In this document: positions 11,240-41,266 of the stretch, piece after piece
Position numbering within the stretch: the first letter of the stretch is position 1
Layout: each line of letters opens with the position of its first letter
DNA from: Turicibacter faecis
GTDB taxonomy: Bacteria > Bacillota_I > Bacilli_A > MOL361 > Turicibacteraceae
Length of the DNA stretch: 64,000 nucleotides
Direction of reading: 5' to 3'
Assembly (NCBI RefSeq): GCF_037076425.1
Contig: NZ_AP028127.1
Location: 960,001 to 1,024,000 of the forward strand
Position numbers and translations under genes: made by a program
Notes under the pieces: generated by a model
What the model was told of the DNA's origin: nothing
Seen by the model: the letters and a program-made list of their open reading frames with translations, nothing else
Databases searched by the model: none

Positions 11240-12028
11240 GTGAAAATTATGACATTTAATCTCCGTTCTGATTCAGTTTTAGATGGTAAAAATCGTTGGC
11301 GTCATCGGAAGGAGATTGTGTGTGATATTTTAGAAAAATATAGTTGTGACATTATTGGTCTTCAAGAAGTAACCGTCAAGATGCGGGCAGACCTAGAAAA
11401 AAATTTGAAAGGATATCAGATTATCGGAAGGCCAAGGAGTAAACGATTCTTTATTGAGCATAATAATATCCTTGTCTCAACCAAGCATACGATTTTAAGC
11501 CAGGAGACATTTTGGTTATCTAGAAATCCTCAGAAAGTTGGAAGTTCCGTATGGTATTCTATTTTTCCGCGAATTTGTACAACAGCAAAAATCAAATTAA
11601 GCACGGGAGAAGTAGTGAGGGTGTATAATACACATTTAGATTGTTATCTATCTCCTGCAAGACAGTATGGGTTGAAAAAAATTATGCGCTATATTGAAAA
11701 GCAGCATGCTTTAGAAAAACTACCCGTGATTCTTATGGGAGACTTTAATGCAAATCCCCATCACCGTGTCATTCAAACAATCTTTGGTGAAAAATACAAT
11801 ACGCAACAATTGGTTGCTGTGCAGGAAAAAGATCCGAAAATTTATCATCAGGCAACAATGGGACGGTTTAAAGATCGTGAGCGTGGAATGCATTTAGATT
11901 ACATCTTTGTTTCCCCTGAGTATGAAGTTGAGCGAACACAGATTATCAAAGATAATCAAAATGGAAGATTTCCATCGGATCATTATCCATTAGTAGCAGA
12001 TATTTGTTTGCAAAGAGGTAATGGATAG
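11240..12028 (+). CDS. Endonuclease/exonuclease/phosphatase (EEP) family hydrolase
   Basis: A 262-residue soluble protein of the EEP fold. It shows MTFNLRSDS (metal-binding Asn), IIGLQEVT (catalytic Glu), YNTHLDC, MGDFNANP (Asp and Asn) and HLDYIFVS followed by FPSDHYPLVADI (Asp-His). It lacks the DNA-binding insertions of ExoA. Relatives act on phosphoesters of sugars, lipids or nucleotides, so the substrate is open. GTG 11240 is the start, with AAAGGAGG about 9 bases upstream. It is the last protein gene before the small-RNA array. Confidence 0.85.
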   Translation: MKIMTFNLRSDSVLDGKNRWRHRKEIVCDILEKYSCDIIGLQEVTVKMRADLEKNLKGYQIIGRPRSKRFFIEHNNILVSTKHTILSQETFWLSRNPQKVGSSVWYSIFPRICTTAKIKLSTGEVVRVYNTHLDCYLSPARQYGLKKIMRYIEKQHALEKLPVILMGDFNANPHHRVIQTIFGEKYNTQQLVAVQEKDPKIYHQATMGRFKDRERGMHLDYIFVSPEYEVERTQIIKDNQNGRFPSDHYPLVADICLQRGNG

Positions 12029-12097
12029 AAAAAGTTAATATCCAATTTTGACACGGAAAGAACACATCTTATTTAAACAAGTGTGCCATAATAGAAA

Positions 12098-12235
12098 TTG
12101 TCTTGAAGAACAGGACACTACCCCAACAAAAATATTATAAAGTTCTCCCCAAAAAAAACTTTATAATATTCTCTCTTTTCATCCCAATATTTATAAAGCA
12201 TCCCCAAAAAGAAATCTTATTTGATTTCTTTTTTT
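12098..12235 (+). ncRNA. Small RNA, array unit 1 (divergent)
   Basis: The -10 is CATAAT 12087-12092. Hairpin 1 is GTCTTG/CAGGAC, where a G-U wobble replaces a pair of the other units. Hairpin 2 is AATATTATAAAG / CTTTATAATATT around a CTCCCC loop; its C-G pair has become T-A on both sides relative to the others. The CTCTCTTTTCATCCC linker is identical. The terminator is unrelated to the rest (AAAGAAATC/GATTTCTTT, 12208-12235), so the RNA body and the terminator evolve independently. Ends are predicted, about 138 nt. Confidence 0.82.
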
Positions 12236-12458
12236 ATTTGTTAAAACTGAGGGGGGGAAGAGACACAAGTTTTTATATGGCAATAATGCGGTAGAAGATA
12301 AAGGATCATCTTAAGAATTAAACATCTTTCGAGGAAAGGAAGAGCCGTTAGCCTGTATTAACTAGACGCCTGCGGTTATTTAGCCCTAACTATTCGACAG
12401 TATAAAACAAAAAACACAAAAAAACACATTTCAAAGTGCAAATATGCTATAATAATAA

Positions 12459-12598
12459 ATGTCTTGAAGAACAAGACACTACCCTAATTAAAAAATTACG
12501 AAGTTCTCCCCAAAAAAACTTCGTAATATTCTCTCTTTTCATCCCAATATTTATAAATCATCCCCTGTTTTAAGAGGCTCGTAAGAGCCTCCTTTTTT
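12459..12598 (+). ncRNA. Small RNA, array unit 2
   Basis: The -10 is TATAAT 12448-12453. Hairpin 1 is GTCTTG-AAGAA-CAAGAC (12461-12477). Hairpin 2 is ATTACGAAG / CTTCGTAAT with loop TTCTCCCC plus an A run. The single-stranded linker contains CATCCC and CATCCCC. The terminator GAGGCTC/GAGCCTC with a U tract is at 12574-12598. About 140 nt. Confidence 0.87.
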
Positions 12599-12745
12599 TA
12601 TCATGCTTGAGATAGTAAAGAAGGAGTTCGTGTGTGGAACTTTATCATAACAAGGCTGCTTATTTACTCTCAACGTTTATCGACAATAAAAGAGAAAAAA
12701 CACAAAAAAGACACATTTTGAAATGTAAATATGCTATAATAATAA

Positions 12746-12882
12746 ATGTCTTGAAGAACAAGACACTACCCTAATTTAAAAATTACGAAGTTCTCCCCAA
12801 AAAAACTTCGTAATATTCTCTCTTTTCATCCCAATATTTATAAATCATCCCCTGTTTTAAGAGGCCTTAGGGCCTCCTTTTT
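12746..12882 (+). ncRNA. Small RNA, array unit 3
   Basis: The -10 is TATAAT 12735-12740. Hairpins 1 and 2 and the linker are nearly identical to unit 2. The terminator has a shorter stem, GAGGCC-TTAG-GGCCTC (12861-12876), and U tract. About 137 nt. Confidence 0.87.
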
Positions 12883-12944
12883 AATTGGTAGAATAAAACA
12901 CGAAAAAGACACAACAATAGATAGAGAGTATGGCATAATAGTGA

Positions 12945-13084
12945 ATGTCTTGAAAGATAAGATACTATCCTAATTTAAGAAGTTATGAAGTTCTCCCTAA
13001 ACAACTTCATAATATTTTCTCTTTTCATCCTGATAGTATAAATCATCCCCTGTTTTAAGAGGCTCATAGGAGTCTCCTTTTTTT
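12945..13084 (+). ncRNA. Small RNA, array unit 4 (variant)
   Basis: The -10 is CATAAT 12934-12939. Hairpin 1 is changed to GTCTT/AAGAT and keeps pairing with a G-U. Hairpin 2 is GTTATGAAG / CTTCATAAT, with a C-to-T and G-to-A paired change. The loop is CTCCCT instead of CTCCCC, and the first linker motif is CATCCTG rather than CATCCCA, so two of three C-rich motifs are weakened. The terminator GAGGCTC/GAGTCTC is at 13059-13076. It may target a different set. Confidence 0.84.
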
Positions 13085-13158
13085 GTAGAGAAGATTGAAA
13101 AAGGGCGAAAAAACACAAAAAGGACACATGGTATCAAAGAGTTGTGTTATAATAATAA

Positions 13159-13294
13159 ATGTCTTGAAGAACAAGACACTACCCTAATTAAAAAGTTATG
13201 AAGTTCTCCCAAAAAACTTCGTAACATTCTCTCTTTTCATCCCAATATTATAAATCATCCCCTGTTTTAAGAGGCCCGAAGGGCCTCCTTTTTT
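13159..13294 (+). ncRNA. Small RNA, array unit 5
   Basis: The -10 is TATAAT 13148-13153. Hairpin 2 is GTTATGAAG / CTTCGTAAC, with a terminal A-T changed to G-C on both strands and one G-U. The loop is CTCCCA-like and the linker is conserved. The terminator is GAGGCCC-GAA-GGGCCTC (13271-13287). About 136 nt. Confidence 0.86.
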
Positions 13295-13457
13295 GTGTGA
13301 AAAAATGAAACCGATGGGTAAGTTAAGAAGAGAGGCGATCATGATTAGACGATATTGTTGTTTCATTATTGTAGAATCTAGCTATAATGGTGATAAAAAA
13401 CGACAAAAAAAACACAAAAAGGACACATTGTGTAAAAGGATTGTGTTATAATAATAA

Positions 13458-13597
13458 ATGTCTTGAAGAACAAGACACTACCCTAATTAAAGAATTACGA
13501 AGTTCTCCCCAAAAAAACTTCGTAATATTCTCTCTTTTCATCCCAATATTTATAAATCATCCCCTGTTTTAAGAGGCTCGTAAGAGCCTCCTTTTTT
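13458..13597 (+). ncRNA. Small RNA, array unit 6
   Basis: The -10 is TATAAT 13447-13452. The body is essentially the same as unit 2, including CTCCCC, CATCCC and CATCCCC. The terminator GAGGCTC/GAGCCTC is at 13573-13597. About 140 nt. Confidence 0.87.
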
Positions 13598-13816
13598 ATG
13601 TAGGTAAGAAAAATTTCCAATTTTAAAAATAATATTTAGGTTGAAATGTGAAATGATTGGTATGGGACTAAGACCTGTGTTTACCATGGGAAGTTTAATG
13701 ATAGGTATGTGGGGATAGAGTGATCGTTTCTTATAACGAATTAATCTTTTTTGATAAAAAGCGACAAAGAACACATGAAAGACACATTTTGAAGTACAAA
13801 TATGCTATAATAATAA

Positions 13817-13955
13817 ATGTCTTGAAGAACAAGACACTACCCTAATAAAAAGTTACGGAGTTCTCCCCAAAAAAACTTCGTAATATTCTCTCTTTTCATC
13901 CCAATATTTATAAATCATCCCCTGTTTTAAGAGGCCCGAAGGGCCTCCTTTTTTA
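13817..13955 (+). ncRNA. Small RNA, array unit 7
   Basis: The -10 is TATAAT 13806-13811. Hairpin 2 is GTTACGGAG / CTTCGTAAT, retaining pairing through G-U. The linker is conserved. The terminator GAGGCCC-GAA-GGGCCTC (13931-13947) ends about 75 bp before the M32 peptidase start, so read-through would reach that gene. About 139 nt. Confidence 0.86.
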
Positions 13956-14030
13956 TATTTGAAAAAACCCCAACCAAAAATAGAAAAATATGGTAAAATA
14001 TTTAAATAGAAGAAAAGAGGGGGAATGATC

Positions 14031-15533
14031 TTGGATAGAGAAAAAGCATTGAGGTTTTTAAAGGAACAAAGAAAACTCATGAATTATATGAATTCGACGT
14101 TAAGTGTTGTGTCGTGGGATACTGAGGTAATGGCTCCTGAGGAAGCAATCGATTATCGAAGTGAAGTGATTGGGTACTTATCGTCTAACTATCATCAGTT
14201 AACAACGGATTATAGAATTGAGCAAGCTCTGGGTGTCTTATTGAGTGAAGAGGATAAATTTAATCTGTATGAGCAACGCTTGATTGAAGAGTTTTATAAT
14301 ATTTATTATAAAAATAAAAAAATACCGGAATCCCTGCAAAAGGAATTATCGATGGCGACAGCGATAAGTAATAAATCTTGGAAAAGGGCGAAAGAAAAAG
14401 GTGATTATGAACTTTTTAAACCCCATCTTGCGCGTGTTATTGATTTGTTAAAACAGCAAGCAGTATGCGTGGGGTACGAGGGGCATATCTATAACGCCTT
14501 TTTAGATAACTTTGAAAAAGGGATGACAGTAGAGGAGTTGGACGAGATTTTTGCTGACCTTAAAGAGGGGCTTGTTAAACTTTTAGCGGAGTTAAAGGAG
14601 GCAAAGCAACTGTCATTCCGTCGGCCTAAAGGGCCATTTTCAAAAGAATCGCAATCTCAGTTGGCGTTATATATACTCAACCAAATGGGATATCGCATCC
14701 ATGAAGCAGGGCGACTTGATGAAACAGAGCATCCTTTTACAGCTTTTTTAGGGCCCAAAGATATAAGGATTACCACACATTATTATGAAAATTCAATTGA
14801 AGGTGCGTTGTTTAGCACGATTCATGAAGGCGGGCATGCTATTTATGATCAAAATATGCCTCATGATTGGGCAGAATATGGGGTGAATGAAGCGCCATCG
14901 ATGGGACTTCACGAATCTCAATCGCGTTTTTACGAAAATATAATTGGGAGAAGTTTACCATTTTGGAGAGCTTATTTTCCAAAATTACAAGAGTTTATGC
15001 CGTCTTATCAGTCGGTTTCTTTAGAGGAGTTCTACCAAATGATAAATGAGGTATCTCCTTCGCTTATTCGGACGGAGGCAGATGAGATAACCTACTCGTT
15101 ACACATTATTATTCGCTATGAAATTGAAAAATTAATGGTGAGTGGAGAGGTTGGCATTGACGAACTTCCAATGATTTGGAATCAAAAGTATAAAGAGTAC
15201 TTAGGCGTGGAGCCGAAAAACGATGCAGAGGGATTAATGCAAGATGTCCATTGGGCTGAAGGGATGATCGGTTACTTTCCAAGCTATGCGCTAGGAAACC
15301 TATACGGCGCTCAGTTTTATCATCAGATGAAAAAGGAACTTCCACAACTTAAGGATGAGATAGAATCAGGGAATTTATCAATTGTTTTTGAATGGTTGAA
15401 GCAAAATGTTCATTCGTATGGAAAGGTGTATACCCCTGGACAATTGGTTGAACATGTGACCAAAGAGCCGCTTAATCCTAAGTATTTCTTAGATTATTTG
15501 CGTGAAAAATATCTAAATTTATATCATCTATAA
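14031..15533 (+). CDS. M32 family metallocarboxypeptidase (carboxypeptidase Taq type)
   Basis: This roughly 500-residue cytoplasmic zinc carboxypeptidase removes C-terminal residues from peptides. The zinc motif HEGGH is at about residues 265-269, followed by the conserved GLHESQSRFYEN segment (third ligand Glu) and IRTEADEITYSLHIIIRYEIEK. Length equals B. subtilis YpwA (501). TTG 14031 fits the AGAGGGGG site better (7 bp) than ATG 14025 (1 bp); they differ by two residues. It is a single gene with a terminator behind it. It may recycle peptides imported by the Opp system. Confidence 0.93.
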   Translation: MDREKALRFLKEQRKLMNYMNSTLSVVSWDTEVMAPEEAIDYRSEVIGYLSSNYHQLTTDYRIEQALGVLLSEEDKFNLYEQRLIEEFYNIYYKNKKIPESLQKELSMATAISNKSWKRAKEKGDYELFKPHLARVIDLLKQQAVCVGYEGHIYNAFLDNFEKGMTVEELDEIFADLKEGLVKLLAELKEAKQLSFRRPKGPFSKESQSQLALYILNQMGYRIHEAGRLDETEHPFTAFLGPKDIRITTHYYENSIEGALFSTIHEGGHAIYDQNMPHDWAEYGVNEAPSMGLHESQSRFYENIIGRSLPFWRAYFPKLQEFMPSYQSVSLEEFYQMINEVSPSLIRTEADEITYSLHIIIRYEIEKLMVSGEVGIDELPMIWNQKYKEYLGVEPKNDAEGLMQDVHWAEGMIGYFPSYALGNLYGAQFYHQMKKELPQLKDEIESGNLSIVFEWLKQNVHSYGKVYTPGQLVEHVTKEPLNPKYFLDYLREKYLNLYHL

Positions 15534-21151: not shown

Positions 21152-22642
21152 GTGAGACGATATTTAATTAAAAGATTTTTAAGATCATTGTTGTCGATTT
21201 TTATTGTTATGACGATTGTTTTTACGCTTGTTTATTCGGTAGTCCCTCGTGATCGAGTCTTTTTTTCAGATGTAAATATAGAAAAGTTGCAAAAAAGACC
21301 GGATGATTACTTGAATTATAAATATATTCAATGGGAAAAGTTGGGTTACTTGAAGTATGAGACGATTCAAGATTATTGTAGAGGACTTTACGGCGACGCG
21401 AATGGAGAGTATGTTCGTTGTTTATTACCGGACTCAAGTGAAACAAAAGAGTTTGTATCTTCTAAACAAGAGGAAGGATGGGAAGTATCCTTTTTTGAAG
21501 AATCCGGACAGGCTTATTCATTTGAAGAGATTTCACCGTTAAAACGTGCACTTAATTGGTGGGCCAACTTAATTCAAATTGATTCGCCTAATCGGGTAAA
21601 AAGTGAAGAGGCGATCCTAAAACGCCAAATTTATGTTGGAAAAGATTTTAATGATCGTCTGGCATTGATGTGTTCGGGGTGCGAAAATAAATACTTAATA
21701 TATTTTGATCAAAAGTTTCCGTTTATCCATCAAAATATAGTCAAACTAAATTTAGGAGTTTCTTATCCAACGTATAGTGGACAGGAAGTATTAGAGGTCA
21801 TTACGAGTTCTCAGGGAGAAAAGGTGAAACAGGAGCTTAAAGAACCTATTAATGGCCAAGAAGCTAGTTCGATTAATTATTACACGTGTCGATATAAGGA
21901 AACGTTGGATGCCCTAGAGAAGAAGAACTTCAGTGATCATTATGCAGATTGCGATGCCATTCGAACGGATCCATCCATGATGAAGATTTCGTTTATTATG
22001 GGATTTATCTCGCTTGTGTTGACTTATGTGATTGGCTTGCCGCTTGGGGTTTATATGGCGCGCCATCAAGGTCGGTGGGGAGATCGTTTGGGGCAGTGGT
22101 ATATCATCTTCATGAATGCCATTCCTGGTCTTGCTTATATTGTTTTTATTCGCTTTATCGGTGGAAAATATTTTGGCTTACCTTCGATGTTCCCGATGTT
22201 AGGGGCAGAAGATCCAAGGTCCTACATTTTACCTATTTTGTCGTTAACTTTAGGTGCTACAGCTAGCCGCATGATGTGGATGCGCCGCTATATGATTGAC
22301 CAAAGCCAGATGGATTATGTCAAATTTGCACGTGCAAAGGGACTTTCAGAGCGCGAAATTTTTTCAAAACACATTTTTAGAAATGCGATCATTCCTATGG
22401 TTCATGGAATCCCTGCAGCCATCATTTTTTGTATTTCTGGCGCCTTAATTACCGAAGGGGTTTATGGAATTCCAGGAATGGGTAAAATTTTACCCGATTC
22501 TATCTCGATTTATAATAATTCGATGGTGGTAGGGCTAACGTTTATTTTTACAACTTTAAGTATTCTATCGACATTTTTAGGGGACTGGTTATTGACTAAA
22601 ATTGATCCACGGATACGTCTTGAAGATAAGGGAGGGAATTAA
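21152..22642 (+). CDS. oppB: Oligopeptide ABC transporter permease, OppB/AmiC type
   Basis: A 496-residue inner-membrane permease. The first helix (8-30) is followed by a large extracytoplasmic insertion of about 240 residues. Five further helices then carry the permease signature EYVKFARAKGLSEREIFSKHIFRNAIIP-like segment, seen here as DYVKFARAKGLSER then HIFRNAIIPM. The length matches streptococcal AmiC (about 498) rather than ordinary OppB (about 310). GTG 21152 follows AAGGGGGAG. It is the first gene of oppBCDF. Confidence 0.92.
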   Translation: MRRYLIKRFLRSLLSIFIVMTIVFTLVYSVVPRDRVFFSDVNIEKLQKRPDDYLNYKYIQWEKLGYLKYETIQDYCRGLYGDANGEYVRCLLPDSSETKEFVSSKQEEGWEVSFFEESGQAYSFEEISPLKRALNWWANLIQIDSPNRVKSEEAILKRQIYVGKDFNDRLALMCSGCENKYLIYFDQKFPFIHQNIVKLNLGVSYPTYSGQEVLEVITSSQGEKVKQELKEPINGQEASSINYYTCRYKETLDALEKKNFSDHYADCDAIRTDPSMMKISFIMGFISLVLTYVIGLPLGVYMARHQGRWGDRLGQWYIIFMNAIPGLAYIVFIRFIGGKYFGLPSMFPMLGAEDPRSYILPILSLTLGATASRMMWMRRYMIDQSQMDYVKFARAKGLSEREIFSKHIFRNAIIPMVHGIPAAIIFCISGALITEGVYGIPGMGKILPDSISIYNNSMVVGLTFIFTTLSILSTFLGDWLLTKIDPRIRLEDKGGN

Positions 22643-22644
22643 CG

Positions 22645-23562
22645 GTGCAAGATTCACGTTTTGAATTTGTCGCAGTAGATGCACGGGTAGCTGAAGAGAT
22701 TGAGGCCCCATCTTATTCATATTGGCAGTCTGTTTCAAAGCAATTTTTTAAAAAGAAGAGCACGGTTATTTTGTTATTACTGATGGTCGTTATTATACTT
22801 GTTGCCTTAATTCAACCAGAATTATCAGGCTATGATCCGATGAATTCCCCTAATATTAATCGTCCAGAAATGAGATTTCGAGGGATTTCATTACAATATC
22901 CTTATGGAACAGATGGGGTTGGAAACTCAGTTTGGGATGTTGTTTGGGCGGGGACTAGAACCTCGTTATTAGTTGGATTTATTGTTGCTTGTATTAATAC
23001 ATCGATTGGCGTTGTTGTAGGGGCCGTCTGGGGATTTTCAAAGGCCATTGATAAAGTGATGATTGAGGTCTTTAATATTATTTCAAGTGTTCCTTATATT
23101 TTAATTGTCACTGTTCTTTTGTATACGTTTGGAAGGGGATTTTGGCAATTAATTTTAGCCATGTGTTTGACGGGCTGGTTATCGACGGCTTATTTTATTC
23201 GAACACAAGTGATGATTATTCGTGATCGCGAATATAATCTCGCTTCATCTTGTCTTGGGACACCGATGTTGCGTTTAGTTAGTCGTAATATTTTGCCATA
23301 CTTGCTATCCGTTATTATGACGAATGTATCTCTAGAAATTCCAGCGGCTATTTCAACAGAAGTCACGTTATCATTTTTAGGAATTGGTTTGAACGTGGCT
23401 GTTCCGTCTCTTGGAAGAATGATTAACCAATATGCCAATTATTTTAATGGATATCCCCACTTATTTTGGGCTCCTGTTTTAACATTGGCGTTAGTGACGA
23501 TTTCTTTATATGTCATTGGTCAAACATTAGCAGACGCTTCAGATCCAAGGACACATCGATAA
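22645..23562 (+). CDS. oppC: Oligopeptide ABC transporter permease, OppC/AmiD type
   Basis: A 305-residue second permease, six helices, with the N-terminal OppC extension before helix 1 (about 37-57). The conserved cytoplasmic EAA-like loop is NLASSCLGTPMLRLVSRNILPYLL. The C-terminal LSFLGIGLNVAVPSLGRMI is typical of OppC. Starts at GTG 22645, two bases after the oppB stop, with GGAGGG inside the end of oppB, so translation is coupled. It pairs with OppB to form the channel. Confidence 0.93.
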   Translation: MQDSRFEFVAVDARVAEEIEAPSYSYWQSVSKQFFKKKSTVILLLLMVVIILVALIQPELSGYDPMNSPNINRPEMRFRGISLQYPYGTDGVGNSVWDVVWAGTRTSLLVGFIVACINTSIGVVVGAVWGFSKAIDKVMIEVFNIISSVPYILIVTVLLYTFGRGFWQLILAMCLTGWLSTAYFIRTQVMIIRDREYNLASSCLGTPMLRLVSRNILPYLLSVIMTNVSLEIPAAISTEVTLSFLGIGLNVAVPSLGRMINQYANYFNGYPHLFWAPVLTLALVTISLYVIGQTLADASDPRTHR

Positions 23563-23574
23563 GGGGGATGAGTT

Positions 23575-24678
23575 ATGAAAGGTAGGGACACTATTTTATC
23601 CATTCGAGATTTAGAGGTCACCTTTAAAGTGCGAGACCGCCAACTTAAAGCTATTCGCCGCATTTCATTTGATTTGTATCGCGGGGAAACACTTGCAATT
23701 GTTGGGGAATCTGGATCTGGAAAGTCTGTGTTAATGAAGTCGCTAACAGGAATGTTGGAATCTAACGGGACGGTTAGCGGTGGAAGTATTCGTTTTTTCG
23801 GTGAGGAGCTTGCTCAAAAGAAAAAACCGCGGGAATGGGAGTCGATTCGCGGGGCTAAGATTGCGACCGTTTTTCAGGATCCGATGACCTCACTTAATCC
23901 GGTTCGTACGATTGGATCGCAAATTGTAGAGGTGATGATGAAGCATCAACGTTGTTCACGAAAGTGGGCGAAACAGTTGGCGATTGAGCTAATGGAACGT
24001 GTCGGAATCTCAGAAGCTGCCGAGCGATTTGATGCGTATCCTCATGAGTATTCAGGCGGAATGCGCCAGCGGATTGTGATCGCGATTGCGTTAGCTTGCC
24101 GTCCACAAATTTTAATTTGTGATGAACCAACAACGGCTTTAGATGTGACCGTGCAAGCCCAAATTTTAAATTTAATTAAACAATTACAACAAGAGGAAGG
24201 GTTTACCACCATTTATATTACGCATGATTTAGGGGTAGTGGCCAATGTGGCTGATCGGGTAGCTGTTATGTATGCAGGACAAATTGTAGAGTACGGAGAG
24301 GTAGAGGAGATTTTCTATGAATCGGCTCATCCGTATACGTGGGCGTTGCTTTCTTCGCTTCCACAATTAGGTCAAAAGGGAGAACGTTTATTTTCGCTTC
24401 ATGGGACACCGCCTTCTTTATATCATGACATTGTCGGGGATGCATTTGCTCCACGTAATCAGTATGCGATGCGTATTGATTTTGAAGAAGAGCCGCCTTT
24501 TTTTGAAATTACACCGACTCATTATGCAAAAACGTGGCTATGTGATCCGCGAGTTCCATTTTTTAAACGCCCAAAAGCGATTGAAGGGCTTCATCAGAAG
24601 ATGGTAATGATTTATCAAGGAGGAAATGTTAGTGGGAACAGAGAAGAAAGAAGTTTTAGTTTCAATCCGCGATCTTGA
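23575..24678 (+). CDS. oppD: Oligopeptide ABC transporter ATP-binding protein OppD
   Basis: A 367-residue ATPase. Walker A is GESGSGKS (about 49-56), the Q loop is [12 protein letters not shown], the ABC signature is YSGGMRQR, Walker B is [12 protein letters not shown] and the switch is ITHD. A C-terminal oligopeptide-transporter domain follows, but the usual Cys cluster for an iron-sulfur site is reduced to a single WLCDPRVP. The ribosome binding site region reads GGGGGATG (23563-23570), perfectly complementary to the CATCCCC motif of the small-RNA array. Overlaps oppF by about 47 bp. Confidence 0.95.
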
Positions 24679-25564
24679 AATTAAATTTGATGAGTACGTC
24701 GCTGTATCAAATGTGAATTTTGATATTTATAAAGGAGAGACATTTTCGCTTGTTGGGGAATCCGGTTCAGGAAAAACGACCATTGGTCGGGCTTTAATGC
24801 GTATTCATGAGACATCGAAAGGGGATATTTTCTTTAAAGGAAAAAAGATTAATCAAAAGGTGGGGGCGCGTCTTCATAAAGAACTCATCAAAAAAATGCA
24901 AATGATTTTTCAAGATCCCGCTGCTTCTTTGAATGAACGAGCGACTATTGATTATATTGTATCTGAAGGGTTGCGAAATTTTCGTCTTTATAAAAATGAA
25001 ACAGAGCGTCAACAAAAAGTTCGTGAGGCGCTATTGTCTGTTGGTCTCTTGCCTGAACATTTAACGAGATATCCTCACGAGTTTTCGGGAGGACAACGCC
25101 AACGGATTGGAATTGCCCGTGCGATGGTGATGGAACCTGAGTTTATTGTAGCTGATGAACCGATTTCCGCACTTGATGTTTCCATCCGCGCGCAAGTTTT
25201 AAATCTGTTAAAGAAGCTCCAACAAGAAAAAGAGTTAACTTATTTATTTATTGCGCATGATTTATCGGTTGTGCGTTTCATTTCCGATCGGATTGCTGTG
25301 ATTCATAAAGGTAAAATTGTGGAGTTGGCAGAAGCAGAAGAATTATTTTTAAATCCGCTTCATCCGTATACGAAATCATTACTTTCAGCGATTCCGATTC
25401 CAGACCCACGCCTTGAAAAAAATAAAAAATTAGTGGTCTATACAGGGGAAGAACATGATTATTCAGAGGATTTACCGAAATGGAAGGAAATAAAAGCGGG
25501 TCACTTTGTATGGGCAAATGATGCGGAAGAAAAAAGATATAGAATGCAAATGAAGATAGGATAA
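24632..25564 (+). CDS. oppF: Oligopeptide ABC transporter ATP-binding protein OppF
   Basis: A roughly 310-residue ATPase partner of OppD. Walker A is GESGSGKT, the signature is [15 protein letters not shown], Walker B is [12 protein letters not shown] and the switch is IAHDLS. GTG 24632 fits the AAGGAGG site (8 bp) better than ATG 24626 (2 bp). The start lies inside the 3' end of oppD. It is the last gene of the operon, followed by the composite terminator at 25566. No OppA binding protein gene is present nearby, so binding proteins must be encoded elsewhere. Confidence 0.94.
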
Positions 25565-40453: not shown

Positions 40454-41266
40454 ATGAGTAAATTAAAAGTTTTATTAGCAGATGATAATAAAGAACTAAT
40501 CACTGTATTATCAGAATACATTTCATTACAAGAAGATATGGAAGTTGTTGAGGTAGCAGGAAACGGGAATGAGGTCTTATCTGTTTTAAGACAGCGCGAC
40601 ATCGATATTTTATTATTAGATGTGGTGATGCCAGACTTAGATGGAGTAAGTGTGTTAGAGGAATTAAAAGATAATCCAACTTTATATAAACGTCCACGCC
40701 ATATTATTATGTTTACAGCATTCAACCAAGAGAAAATTATGATGCGTGCTGCGGAATTAGGAGCTTCATATTTTATTATGAAACCATTTGAAATCAATAA
40801 AATCGTAAAAATTATTCGTGATATTAATGTTCGTTTTGATACGACTGAAGTTTCAAAGCCAATTAATAATTTATATACAAACCAACGTCCTGTGGTTAAA
40901 GAGTTTGATTTAGAATCAGAAATTACAAATATTTTACACGAGATGGGTGTACCGGCACACATCAAGGGATATTTATACTTACGCGAGTCGATTAATATGG
41001 TTTACAATGATATCGAATTACTTGGATCAATTACAAAAGTTTTATATCCAGATGTTGCGAAAAAATATAAAACAACAGCTTCACGTGTTGAGCGTGCTAT
41101 TCGCCATGCAATCGAAGTGGCATGGAATCGTGGAAATATTGAAGCTATTTCAAACATCTTTGGTTATACAGTAAGCGTATCAAAATCAAAGCCAACAAAC
41201 TCAGAGTTTATTGCGATGATTGCCGATAAATTACGTTTAGAACATAAAAATAAAGCTGCATCATAA
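40454..41266 (+). CDS. spo0A: Sporulation master regulator Spo0A
   Basis: A 270-residue response regulator. The receiver domain has acidic pocket Asp10/Asp11, phospho-acceptor Asp56 in LLLDVVMPD, a Thr in MFTAF and Lys in IMKPF. The C-terminal Spo0A DNA-binding domain includes [19 protein letters not shown] and the recognition segment [29 protein letters not shown] precedes the ATG. It shows that the organism can enter sporulation. Its own boxes lie upstream. Confidence 0.98.

Follow-up and report, generated by a model that had tools for sequence, protein, structure and literature searches.

Several small RNAs (sRNAs) of low-GC Gram-positive bacteria carry UCCC motifs that pair with Shine-Dalgarno regions, including LhrC (PMC4132741) as well as RsaE and RNAIII (PMC3861533). 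The LhrC1-5 RNAs of Listeria monocytogenes, together with Rli22 and Rli33-1, are present in several near-identical copies under the control of LisR, and each contains three redundant CU-rich UCCC sites, located in a loop, in a single-stranded segment and in the terminator loop, that act by Shine-Dalgarno pairing (PMC4132741, PMC5880928). Hfq is not needed for the regulation of lapB by LhrC, and oppA is among the further targets (PMC4132741, PMC5880928). The streptococcal csRNAs are likewise multicopy and possess the CiaR direct-repeat site TTTAAG-N5-TTTAAG (PMC8186281), whereas RsaE/RoxS of Staphylococcus and Bacillus contains a C-rich UCCC motif that pairs with ribosome-binding sites and has opp3A and opp3B as direct targets (PMC3861533). 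Regarding Turicibacter, no report on sRNAs was found in the literature searched, which consisted mostly of non-subscription papers.

The seven-unit array and its relatives

The window, that is the whole stretch of 64,000 nucleotides of Turicibacter faecis DNA that was analysed, contains seven head-to-tail units on the + strand at 12051-13954, flanked by genes encoding an Exo_endo_phos protein (11240-12028) and the carboxypeptidase Taq of family M32 (14025-15533), both assigned by Pfam. The list of open reading frames contains no credible ORF between these genes, in agreement with the initial annotation, which had described the array as free of protein genes. According to a whole-genome DNA search, these seven units (E values of 6.5e-102 to 2.8e-36) are the only copies of the family in the 2.43-Mb genome, which consists of one contig. 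Each unit is composed of an ACACA-N6-ACACA repeat, an extended -10 region, hairpin 1, the motif CUACCC, hairpin 2, a linker and a terminator, with an RNA body of about 140 nt. The same annotation had proposed seven units at this place, each with a promoter, two hairpins, a C/U-rich linker and a terminator, and this layout was recovered by the genome search, the folds and the terminator scan; the transcripts that it foresaw are predicted ones. The positions of the units in the window are as follows:

12051..12092, + strand: unit 1 promoter, ACACG...ACACA box and extended -10 (TGCCATAAT); pattern match
12096..12235, + strand: unit 1 RNA body, divergent, with its own A/T-rich terminator; covariance model 128.2 bits, fold z -5.95
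12414..12453, + strand: unit 2 promoter box (half-sites 10 bp apart) and extended -10; pattern match
12457..12599, + strand: unit 2 RNA body; covariance model 180.5 bits, fold z -6.56
12700..12740, + strand: unit 3 promoter box and extended -10; pattern match
12744..12882, + strand: unit 3 RNA body; covariance model 167 bits, fold z -4.83
12898..12939, + strand: unit 4 promoter box and extended -10; pattern match
12943..13084, + strand: unit 4 RNA body, divergent, weaker fold; covariance model 147.6 bits, fold z -2.16
13113..13153, + strand: unit 5 promoter box and extended -10; pattern match
13157..13294, + strand: unit 5 RNA body; covariance model 168.3 bits, fold z -4.93
13412..13452, + strand: unit 6 promoter box and extended -10; pattern match
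13456..13597, + strand: unit 6 RNA body; covariance model 178.5 bits, fold z -6.19
13771..13811, + strand: unit 7 promoter box and extended -10; pattern match
13815..13954, + strand: unit 7 RNA body; covariance model 169 bits, fold z -4.31

The array region contains 21 terminator-like sites on both strands compared with 0.9 expected, and six of the seven units score in the scan of the + strand. The A/T-rich terminator of unit 1 lies outside what the scan counts; this unit ends with a different hairpin, AAAGAAAUC...GAUUUCUUU, in the same role as the terminators of the other units.

With respect to RNA structure, the folds of six of the seven bodies are much more stable than those of dinucleotide shuffles (z -4.3 to -6.6), with a weaker value for unit 4 (z -2.2). 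The stem of hairpin 1 is GUCUUG/CAAGAC, the loop of hairpin 2 is CUCCC and the linker reads CUCUCUUUUCAUCCCAAUAUUUAUAAAUCAUCCCC. In an alignment of 17 distinct rows, which was fitted to the covariance model and leans towards structure in this respect, the named pairs are formed in 97.7% of the cells (39.6-47.0% in controls with slid partners), and nine pairs are changed on both sides, a number reached by none of 500 shuffles. Compensation is also seen in the raw copies of hairpin 2, with UAUAAAGUU/AACUUUAUA in unit 1 versus UACGAAGUU/AACUUCGUA in unit 2, and hairpin 1 reads GUCCUG/CAGGGC in the genome G006, which belongs to another genus of the family. Variation is lowest in hairpin 1 and in the unpaired C/U-rich linker (46 columns, of which 28 are invariant, with a mean identity of 96%). 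In most units, the predicted structure leaves four C-rich sites unpaired, namely CUACCC, the CUCCC/CCCCC loop of hairpin 2, UUUUCAUCCC and AUCAUCCCC. The covariation in the relatives thus confirms the structure predicted from the sequences, and the promoters, structure, terminators and covariation across six genomes support the assignment of the locus as an array of structured multicopy sRNAs.

The covariance-model search of genomes that the initial annotation had suggested yielded matches only in the five Turicibacter genomes examined, including the present one, and in G006. In addition to the seven copies described above, three copies each were detected in G001, G003 and G004 and at least two in the draft genome G002, the latter being a lower bound as copies are cut by runs of N and contig ends; G006 contains one copy. 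Two further members of the Turicibacteraceae (G005 and G007) have neither the array RNA nor the second sRNA described below, no further covariance-model match occurred under stricter filters in 395 genomes sampled from the class, and plasmids gave no match to the array family. Matches to the linker pattern in Flavobacteriaceae, Hyphomicrobiales, Streptococcus devriesei and one viral contig were rejected, being unsupported by the covariance model. Among the genomes sampled, the family is confined to Turicibacter and a single close relative.

The same Exo_endo_phos gene precedes the array in each of the five Turicibacter genomes. The seven bodies of T. faecis share pairwise identities of 66-98%, and its spacers of more than 60 nt show no significant mutual similarity. 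The proposed contrast between conserved bodies and unrelated spacers holds in this genome but not in G001 and G004, where whole units of 232-233 bp are nearly identical, spacers included; on the basis of these repeats the copies therefore appear to be renewed locally. The copies cluster by genome in three relatives, but the resolution of the unit tree is too low for a proof of gene conversion.

The promoter box and a second sRNA

One promoter per unit had been annotated, and one was found; it does not contain a -35 hexamer, however, but an extended -10 region (TGnYATAAT) and an ACACA-N6-ACACA direct repeat near -40 (about -47 to -32). Only three sigma-70-like sites are present in the region compared with 7.6 expected, none of them at a unit. 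The half-sites of the box are 10 bp apart in unit 2 and 11 bp in the other six units, and the first half-site is variable at its fifth base. A strict pattern, ACAC-N6/7-ACACA-N18/20-YATAAT, detected 15 sites in the five Turicibacter genomes, all of which are sRNA promoters (12 at array units, three at the promoters of a second sRNA in G001, G003 and G004), and the reversed control gave none.

This second, unrelated sRNA is a single-copy, C-rich RNA of about 220 nt under the same promoter box. DNA searches located it in all five Turicibacter genomes, at 1,581,517-1,581,770 in that of T. faecis, where its promoter is one mismatch away from the strict pattern. It is also present in G006, with a perfect box, and its pattern of presence and absence equals that of the array family. 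Its fold has a z value of -9.1, and its C-rich sites comprise a run of C7-8 in the first loop, a C-rich terminator loop and the single-stranded motifs CAUCCCC, in the linker, and UUCCCC. Since the array RNAs and the second sRNA have this control element in common, they probably answer the same signal.

Looser searches revealed further box-like sites. A gene for a small lipoprotein with no Pfam domain is preceded by a ACACAAAAAGWACAA-type box and a -10 region in three Turicibacter genomes (L095:979-1661, L096:1029-1739 and L097, site 3091 on the - strand), and it may represent a protein-coding gene of the same regulon. Moreover, a perfect ACACA-N6-ACACA box with a poor -10 region and no ORF just downstream occurs at C1:1179747-1179787, in the genome of T. 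faecis only.

In promoters controlled by OmpR/PhoB-type activators, an extended -10 region is usually preceded by an 11-bp direct repeat at about -47 to -32. The CiaR site TTTAAG-N5-TTTAAG provides an example (PMC8186281). None of the ten loci that encode OmpR-type regulators has a well-placed box, and a convincing case of autoregulation was not found among them. An inverted box-like site (ACACAAGAAAAACATAA), which may be due to chance, is located just upstream of an OmpR-type regulator gene (L088:964-980). A PhoP/PhoR-like two-component operon has its own promoter with a TTAACA-N5-TTAACA direct repeat that is conserved in all five Turicibacter genomes (L101-L105); this site upstream of the PhoP-like regulator does not consist of ACACA repeats.

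The promoters also contain 0A-box-like elements, and control by Spo0A instead of an OmpR-type regulator would make the RNAs part of sporulation control. The window includes a spo0A gene at 40454-41266, about 27 kb downstream of the array. In 11 of the 16 array promoters, CGACA occurs no more than 30 nt upstream of the box, compared with an expectation of 0.019 for each, several of these promoters being near-copies of one another, and TTGTCGAA is kept in the promoter of the second sRNA in all five Turicibacter genomes. However, the position of CGACA varies and the element is missing from the other five array promoters, in G006 the ACACA box is retained at the two loci and TTGTCGAA is not, and the CGACA element may serve the same regulator as an additional half-site. 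Spo0A control is regarded as unlikely on these grounds; it concerns the regulator only and is compatible with Shine-Dalgarno pairing of the RNAs.

Proposed mechanism and candidate targets

We consider it fairly probable that the array specifies Hfq-independent, multicopy, trans-acting sRNAs that are switched on by a response-regulator-type activator and repress mRNAs by pairing of their C-rich motifs with Shine-Dalgarno regions. We infer that each copy would be transcribed separately from its own extended -10 promoter, with an activity depending on an activator bound at the ACACA-N6-ACACA repeat, the position and geometry of which are those usually seen with OmpR/PhoB-type response regulators. 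The single-copy C-rich sRNA would be under the control of the same activator. Base pairing of the four unpaired C-rich sites with G-rich Shine-Dalgarno regions of mRNAs would prevent translation in an Hfq-independent manner, and the several copies would provide dose and a fast response. A Pfam profile that detects Hfq in control genomes including E. coli and B. subtilis found none in the genome of T. faecis, and the action of the RNAs would therefore be independent of this protein.

Pairing was evaluated with 347 start regions taken from the window and a 380-kb genome sample. The linker and the hairpin-2 loop pair more stably with these start regions than with gene interiors, and GGGG-type Shine-Dalgarno sites are common (66 of the 347 starts). 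The preference for start regions did not exceed that of dinucleotide shuffles of the same RNA segments, and the pairing therefore indicates compatibility and not target specificity. Candidate targets were ranked among 40 ortholog groups from syntenic neighbourhoods, a set smaller than the whole genome, and the following feature ranked first:

21152..25564, + strand: opp operon (oppB, oppC, oppD, oppF), candidate target; top of 40 ortholog groups, genes assigned by Pfam

For the hairpin-2 loop the top group is oppB, with -15.3 to -17.3 kcal/mol in four of four genomes, in which its Shine-Dalgarno sequence reads GGGGGA; for the linker it is oppD. As LhrC represses oppA in Listeria (PMC5880928) and RsaE represses opp3 genes in Staphylococcus (PMC3861533), we infer from the pairing rank that the oligopeptide permease operon is the best candidate target among the 40 groups.

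Alternatively, the RNAs could titrate an RNA-binding protein or present a site for it, with the linker as the protein site and the copy number as capacity. RsmY and RsmZ act as a sponge for RsmA in this way. Such a role would fit the many copies, the almost invariant long linker across two genera and a pairing specificity at start regions that is not above shuffles. Against it, the motifs of the array are C-rich and do not correspond to the GGA of CsrA/RsmA sponges, and in low-GC Gram-positive bacteria it is established that UCCC-type motifs pair with Shine-Dalgarno sequences (PMC4132741, PMC3861533), so that we judge a sponge to be quite improbable. It is very improbable that the units encode small peptides or act as dual-function RNAs: short open frames exist, for instance ORFs of 61-63 amino acids with TTG or ATG starts at 12103 and 13387, but changes of 1-2 bases in linker length break the frame between copies and genera, and coding potential was rejected because no frame persists throughout the alignment. 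A non-expressed repeat or mobile element, as might be suggested by the tandem repetition and the nearly identical whole units in two relatives, can practically be dismissed in view of the compensatory changes, the conserved promoters and terminators, the constant location behind the same gene in five genomes, the lack of copies elsewhere in the genome and of plasmid matches, and a single viral-contig pattern match that the covariance model does not support.

Returning to repression by Shine-Dalgarno pairing, we suggest tentatively, and with rather less than even confidence, that Turicibacter possesses a regulator with RNAs as its main output, which acts through one box on a seven-copy sRNA and an unrelated C-rich sRNA that repress envelope and transport genes such as opp. 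If true, one regulator would govern a two-class RNA regulon in an Hfq-lacking gut genus.

Comparison with known sRNA systems

No Rfam family reached its gathering score in the array region, and LhrC and RsaE/RoxS are absent among the 23 Rfam matches obtained at E values up to 10. The best weak match is SQ1002 of Clostridioides difficile (RF03533), which was hit by four units with at best 25.3 bits (E 0.0076) against a gathering score of 128 bits. SQ1002 resembles the array RNAs in its CCC motifs and broadly similar layout, but a large part of the model was skipped and the resemblance is one of layout only. These results agree with the earlier statement that a family with this consensus is not known to have been described.

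The array shares with LhrC the several copies, the accessible, conserved and unpaired UCCC-type motifs and a response-regulator-like promoter. However, the LhrC RNAs comprise 111-114 nt, whereas the array RNAs have about 140 nt with two hairpins before the terminator; the array belongs to a different genus and has no sequence match to LhrC, in line with the differences in body sequence and hairpin layout noted by the initial annotation. LhrC carries a C-rich motif in the terminator loop, whereas the motifs of the array RNAs are found in single strands and in the loop of hairpin 2; their terminator loops are variable and not C-rich. The second sRNA does possess a C-rich terminator loop. The parallel to LhrC drawn in that annotation, with tandem copies and UCCC-type motifs, stands as an analogy and, as far as these sequence comparisons indicate, not as homology. 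With the csRNAs the array has in common the multicopy sRNAs and a direct-repeat site of the response-regulator type with an 11-bp period, but its promoters all contain ACACA-type repeats and none TTTAAG-N5-TTTAAG, no RNA sequence is shared, and all seven copies, unlike those of the csRNAs, are located in one tandem array. RsaE/RoxS resembles the array in the C-rich UCCC motif, in the pairing with ribosome-binding sites, which is predicted for the array, and in opp genes as candidate targets; it differs in structure, the array is multicopy, and the array region contains no Rfam match to it.

The extended -10 region combined with the ACACA-N6-ACACA box and the second C-rich sRNA under the same box are new here, and the least ordinary part is this box common to both RNAs in a genome without detectable Hfq. 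The array thus provides a sharply defined RNA family with a promoter code, a probably co-regulated partner RNA and a candidate target, all of them testable, and an apparently independent case of the low-GC Gram-positive design of many copies, C-rich anti-Shine-Dalgarno motifs and a response-regulator-type promoter, found in this case where Hfq is not detectable. We rate the array RNA as an uncatalogued family that would work like LhrC and the csRNAs and, by the comparisons described above, belongs to neither.
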